From Clostridia bacterium (lineage in GTDB: Bacteria; Bacillota; Clostridia; Christensenellales; Borkfalkiaceae): a stretch of DNA of 50,457 nucleotides. Under the pieces are notes generated by a model that was not told where the DNA came from, did not search any database, and saw nothing but the letters and a program-made list of their open reading frames with translations. This document shows, one piece after another, positions 6,856 to 14,655 of the stretch (positions are counted from its first letter, which is position 1; each line of letters starts with the position of its first letter). Made by a program: the position numbers and the translations under genes. The DNA lies in the NCBI GenBank assembly GCA_021203865.1, contig JAJQAJ010000048.1, positions 1 through 50,457 of the forward strand. The letters are read 5' to 3'.

Positions 6856-6886
6856 TTAACGGAAGATGAAAACGCCCGGAGGGAAC

Positions 6887-8401
6887 ATGGCGGAAGGCGC
6901 TGTAAAGGAAAACAGAATGGGGACGGGCTCCATATGGAAGCTCCTTTTGGTCATAGGCGTGCCGTCTATTGTGTCGCTTGCCGTAAACTCCCTGTACAAC
7001 ATAATAGACACCCTCTTTGTGTCCAGGATGTCTCCTTCCGCGGGCGTGTCGACCGCCGCGCTCACGGCCCTAGGGTACGCTTTTCCCGTCCAGATGATAA
7101 TGGTCGGCATCGCGGTGGGCGTGGGTGTCGGCGCCAACGCCGCGATATCGAGAGCCCTCGGGGAAGGAAACAAAGAAAAGGCCGACAGGATATCCGGCAA
7201 CTCGCTTTTCATAGGCCTTGTGATCTACGCCGTCTTTCTCATCTTTGGGGCGACTCCGCTTGTCGACCTCTATGTCAGAATCTATCGCAGCGCGGACGCG
7301 AACGTCATAAATTACACAGTGACGTACCTTAGGATTTGCTGCTGCCTTTCGGTTTTCCATATATATTTCTGCCTCTATGAAAAGATTTTGCAGGCCACCG
7401 GGAAGTCCTTTCTCAACATGATATCGCTCGTCACGGGCTGCGCCATAAACATCGCGCTGGACCCCGTGTTCATATCGGTTTTGGATCTCGGCATAATGGG
7501 CGCCGCGGTGGCGACGGTTTTGGGCCAGGCCATAAGCTTCGGGCTTAATCTCACGTTCCATCTGAGGTTCAATAGGGAGATAGGAAACTCACTGAAATTC
7601 TGGAAACCTTCTGGGGAGATACAGCGTGAAATTTTCCGCGTGGGATTTTCCGCGATAGTCTCGCAGATCTTACTTTCGCTCATGACGATAATAATGGGCG
7701 TGTTTTTGACGAAAGTCGACAACGCGTTCTTCTGGGTTGAGGAGAATGAAACGTACGCCGCGTCGTACTCGTCGGCTTACAGCACGTTCTACAAGGTTCA
7801 GCAGTTCGCGTTCATGCTGGTATTCGGACTTAGAAGCGCCGTTATATCCATAACGTCGTATAACCACGGGCGGGGATACAAAAAGCGGGTCAAAGAGACG
7901 CTCGGATTCGGTTTCCTGTATGGGCTTGTTCTCATGGTGGTTTGCGTCATTATAGTTGAGACGGCGGCGCGACCGCTCGTGGGTCTTTTCGCCGACGGGT
8001 TCGCGGAAGGCTATGACAGCCTGGGAGCGTATGTGTCAACTCTGGACATATGCGAAAAAGCTGCCAAAATAATAGGCATAAGTTTCCTCTTCGCGGGCGC
8101 GAACATACTCTTTGAAAGCGTGTTCCAGGCTCTGGACTCGGGCGGATATTCACTCATAGTCTCTCTTTGTCGCCAGGCGGTGTTTTTAATACCCATAGTC
8201 GCGGTGGCCACATCGCTCATGGTGAAAAGAGGCAGCCGCGACCTCGAATGGCTTATTTGGGCGTCTTTTTCAATCTCGGAGGCGGCGACCGTCGTGATAG
8301 CGGCCTTCCTTTTTTGGCGCACGTACAGGAAGAAGGTTTTGTCCATGGAGGAAAGGGAGTCTTTCCCGCGCGAAGTTTTTGAAGACGCGGAAAATTCATG
8401 A
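6887..8401 (+). CDS. MATE family efflux transporter (first of a tandem pair)
   Basis: A 504-residue integral membrane protein of about 12 helices, an Na+- or H+-coupled antiporter of the multidrug and toxin extrusion family. Typical features: the N-terminal segment IGVPSIVSLAVNSLYNIIDT, the VGVGANAAISRALGEG loop after helix 2, and a second half with similar topology. ATG 6887 is chosen because GGAGG (6878-6882) precedes it and because the protein then starts like its neighbour, with a short acidic stretch followed by KENRMGT. It is very similar along its whole length to the next gene. Location downstream of marR and an ABC exporter makes a multidrug efflux island. Substrate unknown. Confidence 0.92.
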   Translation: MAEGAVKENRMGTGSIWKLLLVIGVPSIVSLAVNSLYNIIDTLFVSRMSPSAGVSTAALTALGYAFPVQMIMVGIAVGVGVGANAAISRALGEGNKEKADRISGNSLFIGLVIYAVFLIFGATPLVDLYVRIYRSADANVINYTVTYLRICCCLSVFHIYFCLYEKILQATGKSFLNMISLVTGCAINIALDPVFISVLDLGIMGAAVATVLGQAISFGLNLTFHLRFNREIGNSLKFWKPSGEIQREIFRVGFSAIVSQILLSLMTIIMGVFLTKVDNAFFWVEENETYAASYSSAYSTFYKVQQFAFMLVFGLRSAVISITSYNHGRGYKKRVKETLGFGFLYGLVLMVVCVIIVETAARPLVGLFADGFAEGYDSLGAYVSTLDICEKAAKIIGISFLFAGANILFESVFQALDSGGYSLIVSLCRQAVFLIPIVAVATSLMVKRGSRDLEWLIWASFSISEAATVVIAAFLFWRTYRKKVLSMEERESFPREVFEDAENS

Positions 8402-8460: not shown

Positions 8461-8549
8461 GATTGAGTAAAAACGTTGTGTTGCGTAATTTGCGCGTAAG
8501 TCCGGACGGGATTTTCGCGCTTTTCTTTTTTAGAGGCCTGGAGGAAAAC

Positions 8550-10073
8550 ATGGAAGAGAACATTGAGGAGAGCTGCCCCAAAGAAAACAGGATGGGAACC
8601 ACACCCGTGTGGAAGATTCTTCTCATCGTCGGCGTGCCGATGATTGTCTCGCTCGCCGTGCAGTCACTTTACAATATCATGGACAGCCTTTTCGTGTCAA
8701 GGATGCCGGAAAGCGCGGGCGTGGCCACGGCGGCTTTGACCGCGCTCGGATACTGCTTTCCCATACAGATGATAATGATAGGCATAGGGATAGGCACGGG
8801 AGTCGGTGCCAACGCTGCGATATCGAGGGCACTCGGGGAAGGCAACAAAGAAAAGGCGGACAGGATAGTCGGCAACACCATATTCGTGGGGTTCATAATC
8901 TATGCCGTTTTTCTCATATTCGGCGCGACTCCGCTTGTCGACCTCTATGTGAAACTCTACCACAGCGCGGACGAGAATGTCATAAATTACACAGTCACGT
9001 ATCTTAGGATCTGCTGCTGCCTGTCCATATTCAATCTCTACTTCAATCTCTACGAAAAAATCTTGCAGTCCACGGGCAAGTCGACTTTTACGATGATATC
9101 GCAAATCTCCGGTGCGGTCGTCAATATAATACTCGACCCAATATTCATAAGCACGCTCGGCATGGGCATAACGGGTGCCGCCATCGCCACCATTTTGGGA
9201 CAGACGGTCGGATTTTCAATGAATTTCGCCTTTCATCTCCGTTTTAACAGAGAGATAGGCAACTCGGTGAAAAATTGGAAACCTTCGGGCAAAATCATGA
9301 AGGAAATTTTCCGCGTGGGGCTGGCGGCGATAATATCGCAGGTCCTCATGGCGGTCCTGACGATAGTCATGGGCGTGTTTCTCACGCGCGCGGACAACCA
9401 GTTCTTCCGCTATGTCGCTGAGGACGGCAAGGAGACGTACGCCGCATCGTATGCTTCCGCATATAGCACGTTCTACAAAGTCCAGCAGTTTAGCCTGTTC
9501 ATGGCTTTCGGGGTGAGGGACGCCGTCACGCCAATCATGGCGTACAATCACGGAAGAGGCAAAAAGAAGCGGGTACGCCAGACCATGTGGTACGGCTTTT
9601 TGTACACGCTCATTCTGATGGTCGTATGCACTATCGTCGTCGAATGCGCGACGGAGCCGCTCATGAAACTTTTCGCGGAAGGCTTTTCGAGCGGCGAGGA
9701 CGTCTTCGGGAACCCCGTATCAACTTTGGAAATATGCGTGAGGGCGGCGCGGCTCATAGGCATAAGTTTCGTCTTCGCGGGAGTGTGCATAATGTGCCAG
9801 GGCGTCTATCAGGCCCTGAACGCCGGCACGCCGTCGCTCATTGTCTCCGTGTGCCGGCAGGTTCTCATAGTCATCCCCATTGTGGCGATAGCCACGTCGC
9901 TCATGGTGTCAAGAAATTCAAGGGATCTCGAATGGCTCCTCTGGGTGTCGTTCATAATCTCCGAAGTGGTGACAGCCATTGTCGCCGTCCTGCTTCTTCG
10001 CCGCGTCTACAAAAGGGAGGTCTCCACGATATCCGAGTACACCGGGATGCGGGAAGACGCCCTCGCAAATTGA
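8550..10073 (+). CDS. MATE family efflux transporter (second of a tandem pair)
   Basis: A 507-residue paralogue of the preceding gene with the same ~12-helix topology, the same VGANAAISRALGEGNKEKADRI loop and the same SALRSC-like region around the central YAASYxSAYSTFYKVQQF segment. The open frame continues upstream to 8463, but ATG 8550 has TGGAGG (8539-8544) five bases away and aligns with the chosen start of the first copy. The two copies are probably a tandem duplication that has since diverged, mostly in the central loop and C-terminus. It ends at a strong bidirectional terminator shared with the leftward GltD-like gene. Confidence 0.92.
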   Translation: MEENIEESCPKENRMGTTPVWKILLIVGVPMIVSLAVQSLYNIMDSLFVSRMPESAGVATAALTALGYCFPIQMIMIGIGIGTGVGANAAISRALGEGNKEKADRIVGNTIFVGFIIYAVFLIFGATPLVDLYVKLYHSADENVINYTVTYLRICCCLSIFNLYFNLYEKILQSTGKSTFTMISQISGAVVNIILDPIFISTLGMGITGAAIATILGQTVGFSMNFAFHLRFNREIGNSVKNWKPSGKIMKEIFRVGLAAIISQVLMAVLTIVMGVFLTRADNQFFRYVAEDGKETYAASYASAYSTFYKVQQFSLFMAFGVRDAVTPIMAYNHGRGKKKRVRQTMWYGFLYTLILMVVCTIVVECATEPLMKLFAEGFSSGEDVFGNPVSTLEICVRAARLIGISFVFAGVCIMCQGVYQALNAGTPSLIVSVCRQVLIVIPIVAIATSLMVSRNSRDLEWLLWVSFIISEVVTAIVAVLLLRRVYKREVSTISEYTGMREDALAN

Positions 10074-10088: not shown

Positions 10089-10126
10089 CCCTCCGGGCGG
10101 CTACCCGAAGGGTTTGTTTTTATTTT
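10089..10126. terminator. Bidirectional intrinsic terminator
   Basis: CCCTCCGGG (10089-10097) pairs with CCCGAAGGG (10104-10112) around cggcta with one mismatch. A T-rich tract follows rightward and an A-run (10079-10087) precedes it, so it can end both the MATE transcript and the converging GltD-like transcript. Confidence 0.85.
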
Positions 10127-10129
10127 TTT

Positions 10130-11356
10130 TTAGTCTGTGAGTCCCTGGAGGTACTCGTGCATGGCCATCGCCACGCGCTTTGAGGTTTCGACCGCTTCCA
10201 CGACGGTCTTCGCGCCTTTGACCACGTCGCCCGACGCGAAAAGCCCTTTTCTGGAAGTTACGCCGTTCTCGTCTATTTTCGCGAGTCCTCTCTCGTTTAT
10301 CTCGAGCCCCTCGGTTTCCGTGAGGATGAGAGGGGAGGGCTTTTGCGACACGCAAATCATGACTGAGTCGGCGGGCATGAGTGTCGCCTCCTCGCTCATG
10401 GAGATGACTTTGTGCGTCTCGAGGTCCACGACGGTGTCTTTGAACATGACGCCCTCGTCGGTTATTTCGACGGGTGCTTTGTAGTAGACAAATTCCGCGC
10501 CTTCAATTTCGGCGTATTCGCGCTCCTCGTCTGAGGCGGTGCACCTGTCGGACCTAAGACAAATCTTTACGCTCCTCGCGCCTTTTCTTAAAGCCGTTCT
10601 CGCGACGTCCATCGCGACGTTTCCGGCACCAATGACTATGACCGTGTCACCGAGTTTATAGACGTCCGGGGTTTCCAGATAGTGTACGCCGTAGTGGACG
10701 TGTCCCAGTGTTTCGCCTTTTATGTTGAGGTTTATGGGGTATGTCACGCCGGTGCCTATGGATATCGCCTTGAAACCGTCGCGGAAAAGCTCCTCCACGC
10801 CGAACGATTTTCCTATCGTGATGTTGAATTTTATCTTGATCCCGAGCTTGTACATGAGCTCTTCATATCTGTCGACGATGGCCTTGGGAAGTCTGAACTC
10901 GGGGATGCCGTATCTTAAAACACCGCCGATTTTCGATTTGCTCTCGTATACCGTGACGTCGTATCCGAGCTGTGCCATCATTATGGAGATGGTTATTCCC
11001 GCGGGGCCCGCGCCGACCACGGCGACTTTGATGCCGTTGGAAGGTGCCTTTTCAAGGTCCAGACAGTCGAGGTAGTGTGAGGACACGAAATTCTCTATCG
11101 TGCTGATTTCGACGGGCGTACCTTTTATGCCGAGCACGCAGTGGCCCTGGCACTGGTTTCCGTGGTTGCACACAGTCGAGCATACGACGGACAGGGGGTT
11201 GTTTTCAAAGAGCATTTTCCCTGCCTCGTCTATGTGGCCCTCCAAGAAGAGGTGGATAAATTCCGGGATGTTTGTGTTTATGGGACATCCCGTCCGGCAT
11301 CTCGGGTTCTTGCAGTGGAGGCATCTTTTTGCCTCAGCGATGACGTTGTGAGCCAT
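10130..11356 (-). CDS. GltD-like FAD/NAD(P) oxidoreductase with two [4Fe-4S] clusters
   Basis: A 408-residue cytoplasmic flavoprotein related to the small subunit of glutamate synthase and to NfnB/SudA. N-terminal cysteine sets CLHCKNPRCRTGC and CSTVCNHGNQCQGHC can hold two [4Fe-4S] clusters. An FAD-binding Rossmann motif follows (VAVVGAGPAGITISI), then an NAD(P)-binding motif (VIVIGAGNVAMDVARTA) and the C-terminal FAD contact (GLFASGDVVKGAKTVVEA). No glutamate synthase large subunit is adjacent, so glutamate synthesis is not supported; electron transfer between NAD(P)H and another carrier is the safer inference. AAAGGAGG lies about 12 bases before the ATG, with a closer GAAGGAA. It is 17 bp downstream of the HIT gene in the same direction. 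Confidence 0.85.
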   Translation of the reverse strand: MAHNVIAEAKRCLHCKNPRCRTGCPINTNIPEFIHLFLEGHIDEAGKMLFENNPLSVVCSTVCNHGNQCQGHCVLGIKGTPVEISTIENFVSSHYLDCLDLEKAPSNGIKVAVVGAGPAGITISIMMAQLGYDVTVYESKSKIGGVLRYGIPEFRLPKAIVDRYEELMYKLGIKIKFNITIGKSFGVEELFRDGFKAISIGTGVTYPINLNIKGETLGHVHYGVHYLETPDVYKLGDTVIVIGAGNVAMDVARTALRKGARSVKICLRSDRCTASDEEREYAEIEGAEFVYYKAPVEITDEGVMFKDTVVDLETHKVISMSEEATLMPADSVMICVSQKPSPLILTETEGLEINERGLAKIDENGVTSRKGLFASGDVVKGAKTVVEAVETSKRVAMAMHEYLQGLTD

Positions 11357-11373: not shown

Positions 11374-11793
11374 TTAGAGCGCGGCCTTTATGGCCTCTAT
11401 CATTTCAGCGTACTCCTCATCCGTGAGGTACACCTTGCCGGGGTTCATCGTGAACGTGCCGCCCCATTCGTCCCCATCCTTGTATTTGGGACAGAGGTGG
11501 ACGTGGAGGTGGCATCCGGTGTCACCGTACGCGCCGTAGTTGAGTTTGTCGGGATGGAAGACCTCGTGTATTGCCTTCGCCGCTCTGTTCACGTCAGCGA
11601 AGAACGCGTTCCGCTCTTCGTCCGAGATGTCGACGATTTCGGACACATGGTCCTTGTACGCCACAATGCAGCGTCCGCGTTTGGACTGCTCCTTGAAGAG
11701 GATGAGTTGGCTCACCCCAAGGTCACAGATCTTGATTCCGAATTTCGCGAGCGGCTCTCCGCCCACACAGTATCCGCAGTTCTGATCCTTCAT
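11374..11793 (-). CDS. HIT family (histidine triad) hydrolase
   Basis: A 139-residue HIT-domain protein. The histidine triad CHLHVHLCP places H95, H97 and H99 as the catalytic motif that attacks the alpha-phosphate of nucleotide conjugates. An N-terminal CGYC (C6, C9) suggests the zinc-binding variant of the family. HIT proteins hydrolyse AMP-lysine, adenosine phosphoramidates or dinucleoside polyphosphates; the specific substrate is not predictable. It is upstream of, and probably co-transcribed with, the GltD-like gene. Two tandem dyads lie 28-60 bases upstream and probably control it. Confidence 0.9.
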   Translation of the reverse strand: MKDQNCGYCVGGEPLAKFGIKICDLGVSQLILFKEQSKRGRCIVAYKDHVSEIVDISDEERNAFFADVNRAAKAIHEVFHPDKLNYGAYGDTGCHLHVHLCPKYKDGDEWGGTFTMNPGKVYLTDEEYAEMIEAIKAAL

Positions 11794-11969: not shown

Positions 11970-12425
11970 TTACTTTATCTTTATGACCTTTCCGCCGACA
12001 AGAAGTATCATTTTAATCGCGTCCAAACTGAAATCGTCCGCTTTCACGGTCAGGGCTTTGTCTATCTTCCCTCCGGAAAGTATCTTCACGCGCGTGCATT
12101 TCTTGTCGATGAGCCGTTTTGCCTTGAGTGCTTTGATGTCGACCGTGTCGCCGCTTCGGAAGCTGTCCGATATCGCGCCTATGTTGACAACGCCTTTGGG
12201 CCCCTTCTGGGCCCCGGGTTCGACTCCGACATCGCTTACCAGTATGTAGTTTATGGCGACGTCAGAGATGAGAAGGTCCGCGTCCTCTTCGGAAATTTCC
12301 CCGCGGACGAGATTGGGAATATTTTCAATTTCTCTTTTGATTTCTTCCTCTTCCTCGGGGGTAAGCTCAAAAGATTTTTGAGTTTCAGTCCTCCCGTCTC
12401 TTTCTTCCTTGACGTCAGTTTTTAT
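11970..12425 (-). CDS. uL15-like C-terminal domain in the -1 frame (3' part of the split gene)
   Basis: This frame is open for 151 codons from the A9 run to TAA at 11972-11970. It contains no ATG, GTG or TTG until deep within it, so it can only be made by shifting from the upstream gene. The C-terminal ~70 residues resemble the C-terminal half of ribosomal protein uL15: a GDTVDIKALKAKRLIDKK segment (L15 has a similar gain of an ALKxxGLI helix), then VKILSGGKIDKALTVKAD and a GGKVIKIK end. The first ~50 residues are acidic linker (LTPEEEEEIKREIE) and a conserved-looking segment with GPKGVVNIGAI. From memory, related clostridial proteins carry an uL15-like domain at the end of one continuous frame; this was not checked. 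Confidence 0.72.
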   Translation of the reverse strand: MKTDVKEERDGRTETQKSFELTPEEEEEIKREIENIPNLVRGEISEEDADLLISDVAINYILVSDVGVEPGAQKGPKGVVNIGAISDSFRSGDTVDIKALKAKRLIDKKCTRVKILSGGKIDKALTVKADDFSLDAIKMILLVGGKVIKIK

Positions 12426-13513
12426 TTTTTTTTGCCGTCTTCGTCGCCCGGACCGTATGAATAGTCTTCCGGATGCGCCGCTTCCATCTCCACCTGCGAA
12501 GGCTCTTCCGCCATGTCTCTTTCCGAAACGGTGCCGGTCTCTTTCACCACCACGGTGTCACCGGGACGCACCGCATTTTTTCTTTGCTTCACGAGTTTTT
12601 CCGCGATGAGCTCTTCCAAAGTCTTGGGCTCTATGTCGTAACTGTCCTCGGGAACCGCGCCCTTTTCGCCAACTTCGTATTTTTTCATGAGCGCGTCGAT
12701 GAGGTACACGGCATATTTGACCTTTCTTTTTGAACTGAGCTTCAAGAGCATGGGGATTTTCGCGTAGGCTCTTTTTGCACTCATGTCCGTGCCTTTGTAC
12801 TGGGTGTCAGCGTATTCCTTGGGATCGAGCGCGAGAGCTATGCAGAGCGTTTTGCCTCTGAACATCATCTTGGCTATGGTCTCTCTTCCTTTTGTCACGG
12901 TCTGCGCGCTCCAGGTGTCCTTGATGCGTATTCCTTTGTACGCGCGAATTTCGTTTCTCACGGTGTGATAACGGTCATGAATCTCCGGCGTGGACATCGT
13001 TAGCTTTGCCTTGAAGCTGTAACTGTATGAATAATCGGAAAGTCTCGCGCTAAGAGCCGAATCCACAACCACGGTTCTTTGTTTCTTTTCGGGGGGTTTA
13101 TCTTTCGCGGGCGCTTCGTCGGCTATTCCGAGCTCCTCTAGAACCTCCTCTGACACGGGCTTGGCCACATAGCTGTAATTTTCGGGATTTGTCGCCTCAA
13201 GTTCGACCTGCGAAGGCTCTTCCGGCATTTCCTCTTCCTCGGCGGCCGCGGGCGCCGGCGTTTCAGCCACGACGGGAGCGGGCTTTTCCTCTTCGTCCTC
13301 GTCTTCGTCCGGTTCCTCCTCGTACACGGGGTCGGGTCTGTCTTCGTCGTCGTCATCATCTTCTTCGTCGCCCTCGTATTCATCCACGACGTTGTTTTTG
13401 AAGGACTTCCTCGTGAAGAATATTATCAGAAAGATGAGAACGACTGCCACGACAATTATTATGGCAATTATGGAATATTTCCAGGCATCGGATAGTAATA
13501 ACAAAGAGTTCAT
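12422..13513 (-). CDS. Membrane-anchored acidic protein, upstream part of a uL15-domain fusion
   Basis: A 363-residue 0-frame product. Residues 13-33 form a transmembrane helix right after a short N-terminus, with basic residues (TRKSFKNN) just behind it, so the rest should lie in the cytoplasm. Residues ~42-95 are extremely acidic (Asp/Glu/Pro-rich). A globular region follows at about 165-290 (FKAKLTMSTPEIHDRYHTVR ... RGKTLCIALALDPKEYADTQYKG). A PSQVE-x-EA...PE-x-YSY motif occurs twice, once on each side of that domain. The frame ends GGC AAA AAA AAA TAA; reading on in the -1 frame adds an uL15-like domain. ATG 13513 is preceded by AAGGTAGG. It follows the sugar kinase by 55 bp on the same strand. 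Function unknown. Confidence 0.8.
   Translation of the reverse strand: MNSLLLLSDAWKYSIIAIIIVVAVVLIFLIIFFTRKSFKNNVVDEYEGDEEDDDDDEDRPDPVYEEEPDEDEDEEEKPAPVVAETPAPAAAEEEEMPEEPSQVELEATNPENYSYVAKPVSEEVLEELGIADEAPAKDKPPEKKQRTVVVDSALSARLSDYSYSYSFKAKLTMSTPEIHDRYHTVRNEIRAYKGIRIKDTWSAQTVTKGRETIAKMMFRGKTLCIALALDPKEYADTQYKGTDMSAKRAYAKIPMLLKLSSKRKVKYAVYLIDALMKKYEVGEKGAVPEDSYDIEPKTLEELIAEKLVKQRKNAVRPGDTVVVKETGTVSERDMAEEPSQVEMEAAHPEDYSYGPGDEDGKKK
12424..12434 (-). other. A9 slippery run at the frame junction
   Basis: On the minus strand the 0-frame reads GGC AAA AAA AAA TAA. The heptamer A AAA AAA fits the X XXY YYZ rule for -1 frameshifting, as at dnaX, and nine consecutive A also favours RNA polymerase slippage. 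A -1 shift continues with ATA AAA ACT and stays open for 151 codons. No strong stimulatory hairpin is evident directly downstream. A homopolymer sequencing or assembly error would look the same. Confidence 0.7.
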
Positions 13514-13568: not shown

Positions 13569-14603
13569 TTATCTCCTTATTTCGTACGACTGGTTCATGA
13601 GATTTCTTATCGCCTGCTCGTCGTCCGTTATGTTGAAGTCACCGTGCATCGTGTGCTTTATCACGGATGAGGCCACGGCGAAGTTTACTATTTCATCGGG
13701 GTCCATTTCCATCATGTACGCGTATATGAGGCCGCTCGCGAACGCGTCGCCGCCGCCGACGCGGTCTAAGATGTTGAAACGGAAGGTCTTGCTCTCATAT
13801 GTTTCGCCGTTGTACCACATGAAGGCTTTGAGTGAGTTCTCCGACCCGGAGTGGACATAGCGGATATGGCGTCCTATGACCTTTATGCCGAAACGCGTGG
13901 CTATTTCACGGAAAATTTTGTCCTGGTCTTTGTAGTCGGGAGTGGGGCTGAGCCCGTCCTTCATGTCTTTTTTGTCCGGTCCCAGAAGATTTATGGGCTC
14001 TATGCCGAAGAGGACGTCGACGTAGGGGAGGTACGCCGTTATGCAGTCGCGCGCCTCCTGCCATCCCCAGAGCGCGGAGCGGTAATTGCAGTCGAAACTC
14101 ACGGTGATGTTGAGCTCGTGCGCCGCTTTGAGCGCCATCATTACCATCTCGCGGCAGTTCTGTGAGAGCGCGGGGGTGATGCCGGACAGATGGAGCCAGG
14201 TGAAGCCTTTGAGCTTTTCCTTGAAATCTATTTTGGAATAATCATATATTGCGAAAGCCGAGTTCTTTCTGTCATACGTGACTTTGGACGATCTCACGCC
14301 GAAGCCCTCTTCCAGAAAGTAGATGCCCATGCGTCCTTCCGGGGAATAAATGCTGGGTGAGCAGTGGACGTCGTTTGAGCGGAGGTATCTTATCGCGGCT
14401 TTGCCTATCGAACTGTCGGGCACGACGGTCATGTATGAGCAATCTATCCCCAAATTGGAAAGCGACGCGGCGACGTTGGCCTCCGCCCCGCCGTACGTGA
14501 TGTTAAATTGCGAAGCCGTGCGGACTTTTTCATAGTTGGGAGGGGAGAGTCTCAAAAGAAGTTCCCCCATCGTTATGAACTTTATCTTGCTTTTGTCAGC
14601 CAT
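13569..14603 (-). CDS. PfkB family sugar kinase (2-keto-3-deoxygluconate kinase-like)
   Basis: A 344-residue ribokinase-fold kinase. The N-terminus FITMGELLLRLSPPNYEKV and the following YGGAEANVAASLSNLG are typical of KdgK-type enzymes, which phosphorylate 2-keto-3-deoxygluconate in hexuronate breakdown. The C-terminal GGGDAFASGL supplies the catalytic aspartate and anion hole. The open frame extends to ATG 14648, which coincides with the predicted transcription start; ATG 14603 fits the first strand and is preceded by GGGGGGAA at long spacing, so the start is not certain. A hydroxyacid dehydrogenase gene lies divergently about 500 bp away and may share the pathway. The substrate assignment is from family resemblance only. 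Confidence 0.82.
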   Translation of the reverse strand: MADKSKIKFITMGELLLRLSPPNYEKVRTASQFNITYGGAEANVAASLSNLGIDCSYMTVVPDSSIGKAAIRYLRSNDVHCSPSIYSPEGRMGIYFLEEGFGVRSSKVTYDRKNSAFAIYDYSKIDFKEKLKGFTWLHLSGITPALSQNCREMVMMALKAAHELNITVSFDCNYRSALWGWQEARDCITAYLPYVDVLFGIEPINLLGPDKKDMKDGLSPTPDYKDQDKIFREIATRFGIKVIGRHIRYVHSGSENSLKAFMWYNGETYESKTFRFNILDRVGGGDAFASGLIYAYMMEMDPDEIVNFAVASSVIKHTMHGDFNITDDEQAIRNLMNQSYEIRR

Positions 14604-14655
14604 AGAAAAAATTTCCCCCCATGCGATGTCAAATGATGTCAATTTCATCTAAGTC

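Follow-up and report, generated by a model that had tools for sequence, protein, structure and literature searches.

The window, i.e. the whole stretch of 50,457 nucleotides that was analysed, carries on its minus strand a gene interrupted at a run of nine adenines, with a membrane protein encoded ahead of the run and a uL15-like domain encoded behind it in the -1 frame. The features of this locus, with the corresponding ones of the sister species (genome G014) where they bear on the assignment, are as follows.

13569..14648, minus strand: PfkB-family sugar kinase, the conserved upstream neighbour
12422..13513, minus strand: 0-frame open reading frame of 363 aa (the short form), with its ATG at 13513, ending GGC AAA AAA AAA TAA
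13409..13477, minus strand: predicted single N-terminal transmembrane segment, approximately residues 13-35 (from hydropathy)
12587..13036, minus strand: the domain named here 'mid', approximately residues 160-309 (from conservation with G014)
12425..12433, minus strand: the A9 run at the junction, putatively slippery (from the sequence); in G014 this junction has A10
12422..12424, minus strand: TAA stop of the 0-frame, read with A9; a TAA lies directly behind the run in G014 too
12415..12417, minus strand: TGA stop that shuts the third frame, reached with A8 or A11; the equivalent frame of G014 also ends at a TGA
11973..12425, minus strand: -1-frame extension of 151 codons, the uL15-like tail, with its stop TAA at 11970-11972; 69% identical to that of G014
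11982..12191, minus strand: domain of Pfam family PF00828 (uL15/L18e, Ribosomal_L27A), from a profile match
11374..11793, minus strand: HIT-family protein, the conserved downstream neighbour

The short form consists of an N-terminal membrane segment, a long acidic linker, the 'mid' domain and a second linker that leads up to the A9 run. Its one strong hydrophobic segment lies near the N-terminus (19-residue mean hydropathy reaching its maximum, 3.8, at residue 15). The 'mid' domain is present in most species of the genus and found no match in a Pfam profile search. The -1 frame starts with ATA (12425-12423), whose first letter is the final A of the run, and the chance of a random frame staying open for 151 codons is approximately 0.0007 ((61/64)^151). 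The tail matches the uL15/L18e family PF00828 with an E-value of 1.8e-12 (47.9 bits against a cut-off of 21.5), so that the earlier note, which had proposed from the letters alone that A9 joins the frame of a membrane protein to a uL15-like tail of 151 codons, was right in its coordinates and in its domain assignment. The match to the NCBIfam model of rplO, TIGR01071 (E-value 7.4e-11, 42.1 bits), stays below the equivalog cut-off of 77.95; a separate PF00828 match in the same genome (G000:C9:13047-13259) is presumed to be the ribosomal uL15 proper. As the note had also observed, the tail frame offers no usable start until late: its first ATG, GTG or TTG is codon 113 in the window, inside the domain, and codon 70 in G014. 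Separate translation of the tail was considered and rejected, as in neither species does any of these codons precede the domain. AlphaFold models built from two-row alignments reached pLDDT values of 40 and 42 for the tail and the 'mid' domain and were unusable, and our literature search found no paper on membrane proteins with uL15 tails.

As assembled, the window's A9 leaves the two frames interrupted; a run of 7 or 10 would join them. The only other A9 run of the window (10123-10131) lies directly behind the stop of a gene for a 408-aa oxidoreductase-like protein. Elsewhere in the window, the plus strand encodes in tandem a pair of multi-pass transporters that resemble each other and, judged by eye, are MATE-like (6866-8401 and 8463-10073).

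The ortholog in G014 is located on contig JAJQAK010000031.1 (NODE_1116_length_6503_cov_55), at the same place in the same gene order. Its 0-frame part is 68% identical to that of the window, the identity amounting to 93% for the N-terminus, 70% for the 'mid' domain and 69% for the tail. The two species are sisters yet well separated, as judged from NadE, which is 78% identical between them and at most approximately 65% identical to that of other members (full-length matches). The upstream frame of G014 closes with GAA GAA AAA AAA AAT AAC TGA; the run is thus A10, against A9 in the window, and the tail lies in the +1 frame, to be joined by a run of 9 or 12. G014 thus passes the check proposed in the earlier note, which had taken an A run preserved in close relatives together with a broken frame as support for programmed recoding. 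In both species the two remaining frames are shut at once, by TAA directly behind the run and by TGA a few bases on. Around the run the linker sequences have drifted apart, with large gaps between them, but the run and the stops behind it were kept. No other close ortholog was found among the 93 genomes of the genus, nor by searches with the tail over 201 and 398 genomes of the family, and a GTDB scan returned the G014 record, one distant match and nothing else.

Comparison of the tail between the window and G014 gave pS of 0.61, pN of 0.23 and dN/dS of approximately 0.22 (Nei-Gojobori, NG86), the differences being distributed over codon positions 1, 2 and 3 as 34, 29 and 69; for the upstream part dN/dS is approximately 0.12. 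Neither species has a stop within the tail. These values point to purifying selection on the tail in its own frame, and an unexpressed tail at such divergence should have acquired stops and indels. Together with the interruption kept in G014, this supports the idea of a short and a long product that the earlier note had put forward.

In our view, transcriptional slippage on the poly-A run, giving two protein forms from one gene, is the best single explanation of these observations and a fairly probable one. Read as written, A9 would yield the 363-aa form with the membrane segment, the acidic linker and the 'mid' domain. Stuttering of RNA polymerase on the run, with one A added or two dropped, would bring the uL15-like tail into frame and produce a form of approximately 515 aa, and the stops behind the run (TAA, then TGA) would end the other two frames cleanly. 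In G014, the loss of one A from A10 or the addition of two would lead to the long form. Since RNA polymerase yields a spread of lengths, slippage would explain both species by one mechanism: an enzyme slipping as it does in E. coli would make both forms whatever the DNA length, and the DNA length would be free to drift as long as the run and the two products were kept. We infer that RNA polymerase slips here and that both forms are made, and the tail may then have a role of its own. In E. coli and Buchnera transcriptional insertions rise exponentially with the length of the A run, deletions being rarer (PMC5574713); because insertions outnumber deletions, the window, which needs +1, fits better than G014, which needs the rarer -1 or else +2.

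Criteria for functional A9 slippage have been given by Baranov et al. (PMC1088944). A run of at least nine A/T within the coding frame is present in both species (A9 and A10), whereas an identical run length among homologues is absent (9 vs. 10); the latter is supportive rather than required, as the runs of Nostoc IS elements range from 8 to 10 (PMC1088944). Counting against slippage is the fact that only two species carry the arrangement. Counting against strong slippage is the tolerance of in-frame A9/A10 runs by truA, uvrB, nadE and proA of the same genome; given these tolerated runs, slippage may be modest in this organism.

The census of A9 and longer runs on both strands, performed by a pattern search plus stretches, counted 46 distinct runs in the window's own genome and 29 in G014. 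When the surroundings of all of them were compared, only two proved to occupy equivalent positions in a gene shared by the two species: the junction discussed here and an A10 in nadE. Within a 428-kb sample of the window's genome, coding sequence contained five A9+ runs against 15.3 expected with random synonymous codons (range 8-22 in 60 randomisations), a rough estimate considering that the genes were called mechanically and that a predicted start is close by for two of the five. Runs of A5-A7 were enriched 1.3-1.4 fold in the same coding sequence, and in G014 the depletion of A9+ was weaker and not significant. Such depletion is to be expected where runs of nine are slippery, and from hypermutability too.

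The 'mid' and uL15-like domains co-occur in many genomes of the genus and the family, and the relatives examined that have both encode them in one continuous frame, by open reading frames without any run of A8 or more. Other genes encode a membrane segment followed by 'mid' alone or by the uL15-like domain alone, so that ordinary proteins of either layout, short or long, exist. Other short uL15-like frames were inspected as further cases and discarded, since most of them are located at contig ends or are separate membrane-uL15 genes; an A9 near a 'mid'-domain gene in G014 (C28) proved ordinary, with a stop followed by an RNase J-like gene. In one relative (G267:C96, L204:2322-3831) the 'mid' and uL15-like domains lie in different frames, and the break, which is at no homopolymer, falls within the uL15 region; it is probably an assembly error, the genome being 73% complete. 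In another (G025:C21, L191:2042-4492) a single in-frame TAG separates a protein with two 'mid' domains from a uL15-like tail that has no early start codon, possibly a case of stop readthrough or a broken gene. Besides, uL15-like domains are found inside very large open frames of 5092 to 6374 aa in members of the family (e.g., G257:C5:25758-26012, G188:C3:18351-18716 and G281:C7:69683-69931).

Several other explanations of the interrupted frame have to be considered. Reversible changes of the run length at replication, i.e. DNA-level phase variation, would let A10 cells make the long form and A9 or A8 cells the short one, both assemblies having caught the off state. The different run lengths, both out of frame, agree with this (if the frame is free, the chance of both being off is approximately 4/9), as does the depletion of A9+ runs in so far as hypermutability causes it. 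According to Baranov et al., varying run lengths leave replication slippage open, and sequence alone cannot separate the two (PMC1088944). However, neither species shows an in-frame allele, each being represented by one assembly, and nothing about the product obviously suggests a surface antigen. Moreover, A9 is short for fast replication slippage in cells with intact mismatch repair. We regard phase variation as the main rival, albeit an unlikely one, and it could act alongside transcriptional slippage, not instead of it. The broken-gene explanation, under which production of the tail has ceased and its sequence is decaying, accords with the interruption in both species and with the lack of a uL15-like tail gene in many members of the genus (50 of 93 genomes have one). 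It is hardly compatible with a tail that shows purifying selection when synonymous divergence is nearly saturated and that contains no stops in either species, and we give it very little credence.

As for a homopolymer error, which the earlier note regarded as the main alternative, the gene would be one continuous frame, with a true A10 here and a true A9 (or A12) in G014. The continuous frames of the distant relatives speak for it, but these frames have no run of A8 or more, and two independent assemblies would have to be wrong in the same gene. Such a coincidence is improbable because the other in-gene A9/A10 runs in recognisable genes, four per genome, are all in frame (truA, uvrB, nadE and proA in the window's genome, nadE and three others in G014); these eight controls, named by eye apart from nadE, the only one checked against Pfam, bound the error rate loosely. 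The G014 record, with its SPAdes-style name and coverage of 55, points to short reads. An error is thus improbable in our judgement, the controls and the G014 record having weakened this alternative. The note would have counted relatives with a continuous frame and without a slippery run as evidence against recoding; such relatives do exist among the distant ones, but the closest, G014, is not of this kind. The mechanism that the note had placed foremost, programmed -1 ribosomal frameshifting of the dnaX type on A AAA AAA, did not stand the comparison. A valid heptamer does lie in frame directly ahead of the window's stop; in G014, however, a -1 slip runs into TAA and ends EEKKK-stop, the tail there requiring +1 or -2. 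Furthermore, the downstream structure of the two mRNAs is no better than that of shuffled sequences (z of 0.39 and -0.73), and a Shine-Dalgarno-like stimulator is not evident directly ahead of the run, which makes ribosomal frameshifting highly improbable. Transcriptional slippage, mentioned in the note as having an equivalent outcome, fits both species.

The second run shared by the two species belongs to nadE, encoded at the following positions (Pfam-checked).

G000:C78:2353-4257 (L121/L249): nadE of the window's own genome
G014:C110:277-2175 (L148/L250): nadE of the sister species

In both, TCT-A10-TAGA occurs at codon 298 of approximately 635, between the CN_hydrolase (9-272) and NAD_synthase (333-502) domains; the linkers of the 27 other genus members compared are unrelated and contain at most four A's in a row. 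The frame is intact as it stands; a run of 9 would lead to an immediate TAG, and with 11 A's a stop would follow within approximately 10 codons of the run. At the codon level the conservation of the run is only modestly unlikely, since 10 of the 25 conserved NadE lysines are AAA in both species. nadE is thus a possible second slippage gene, in which slippage would leave the glutaminase half alone. A broader idea, that A9-A10 followed by TAA or TAG serves this small clade of uncultured Clostridia as a deliberate domain switch in more than one gene, for the uL15-like tail and for the glutaminase half of NadE, at set ratios, is tentative and at present rather doubtful.

To our knowledge, proven functional transcriptional slippage is rare in bacterial chromosomal genes outside IS elements. 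The present case is backed by the comparison of two species that are well separated and makes a clean prediction of two products, and the same genomes offer nadE as a further gene in which slippage can be tested. Automated gene calling would annotate a truncated product here and miss the tail, which is a source of mis-annotation. The locus also draws attention to an unstudied group, the membrane proteins with uL15-like tails.

Among known proteins, the tail domain belongs to the ribosomal uL15 family (PF00828/TIGR01071), from which it differs in being the tail of a membrane protein and in falling below the rplO equivalog cut-off. In dnaX, two length forms likewise arise from one gene at an A run, by -1 ribosomal frameshifting in E. 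coli and by transcriptional slippage in Thermus. There the frameshift shortens the product, whereas here it would lengthen it, and a -1 shift of the ribosome does not account for the sister species. In the A9 slippage genes of Baranov et al. (2005; IS elements, mapW and 'pseudo-pseudogenes'), nine A's join overlapping frames and the organisation is kept in non-identical homologues, as it is here, although our gene is not an IS element and its run length is one apart between the homologues (PMC1088944). A similar layout is that of tssM1 (Citrobacter rodentium) and tssM3 (Yersinia pseudotuberculosis): a membrane protein with poly-A just ahead of the stop, a C-terminal domain in another frame, and short and long forms. 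In tssM1, A11 precedes the stop, mRNAs contain 10-15 A's and both forms are needed (PMC4256274). It differs from our gene in the length of the run (A11 vs. A9/A10), in encoding a T6SS protein and in its unrelated domains, and its slippage was proven by mass spectrometry and mutants (PMC4256274), whereas that of the gene described here is predicted. The gene is a probable further member of the known type of transcriptional-slippage genes.
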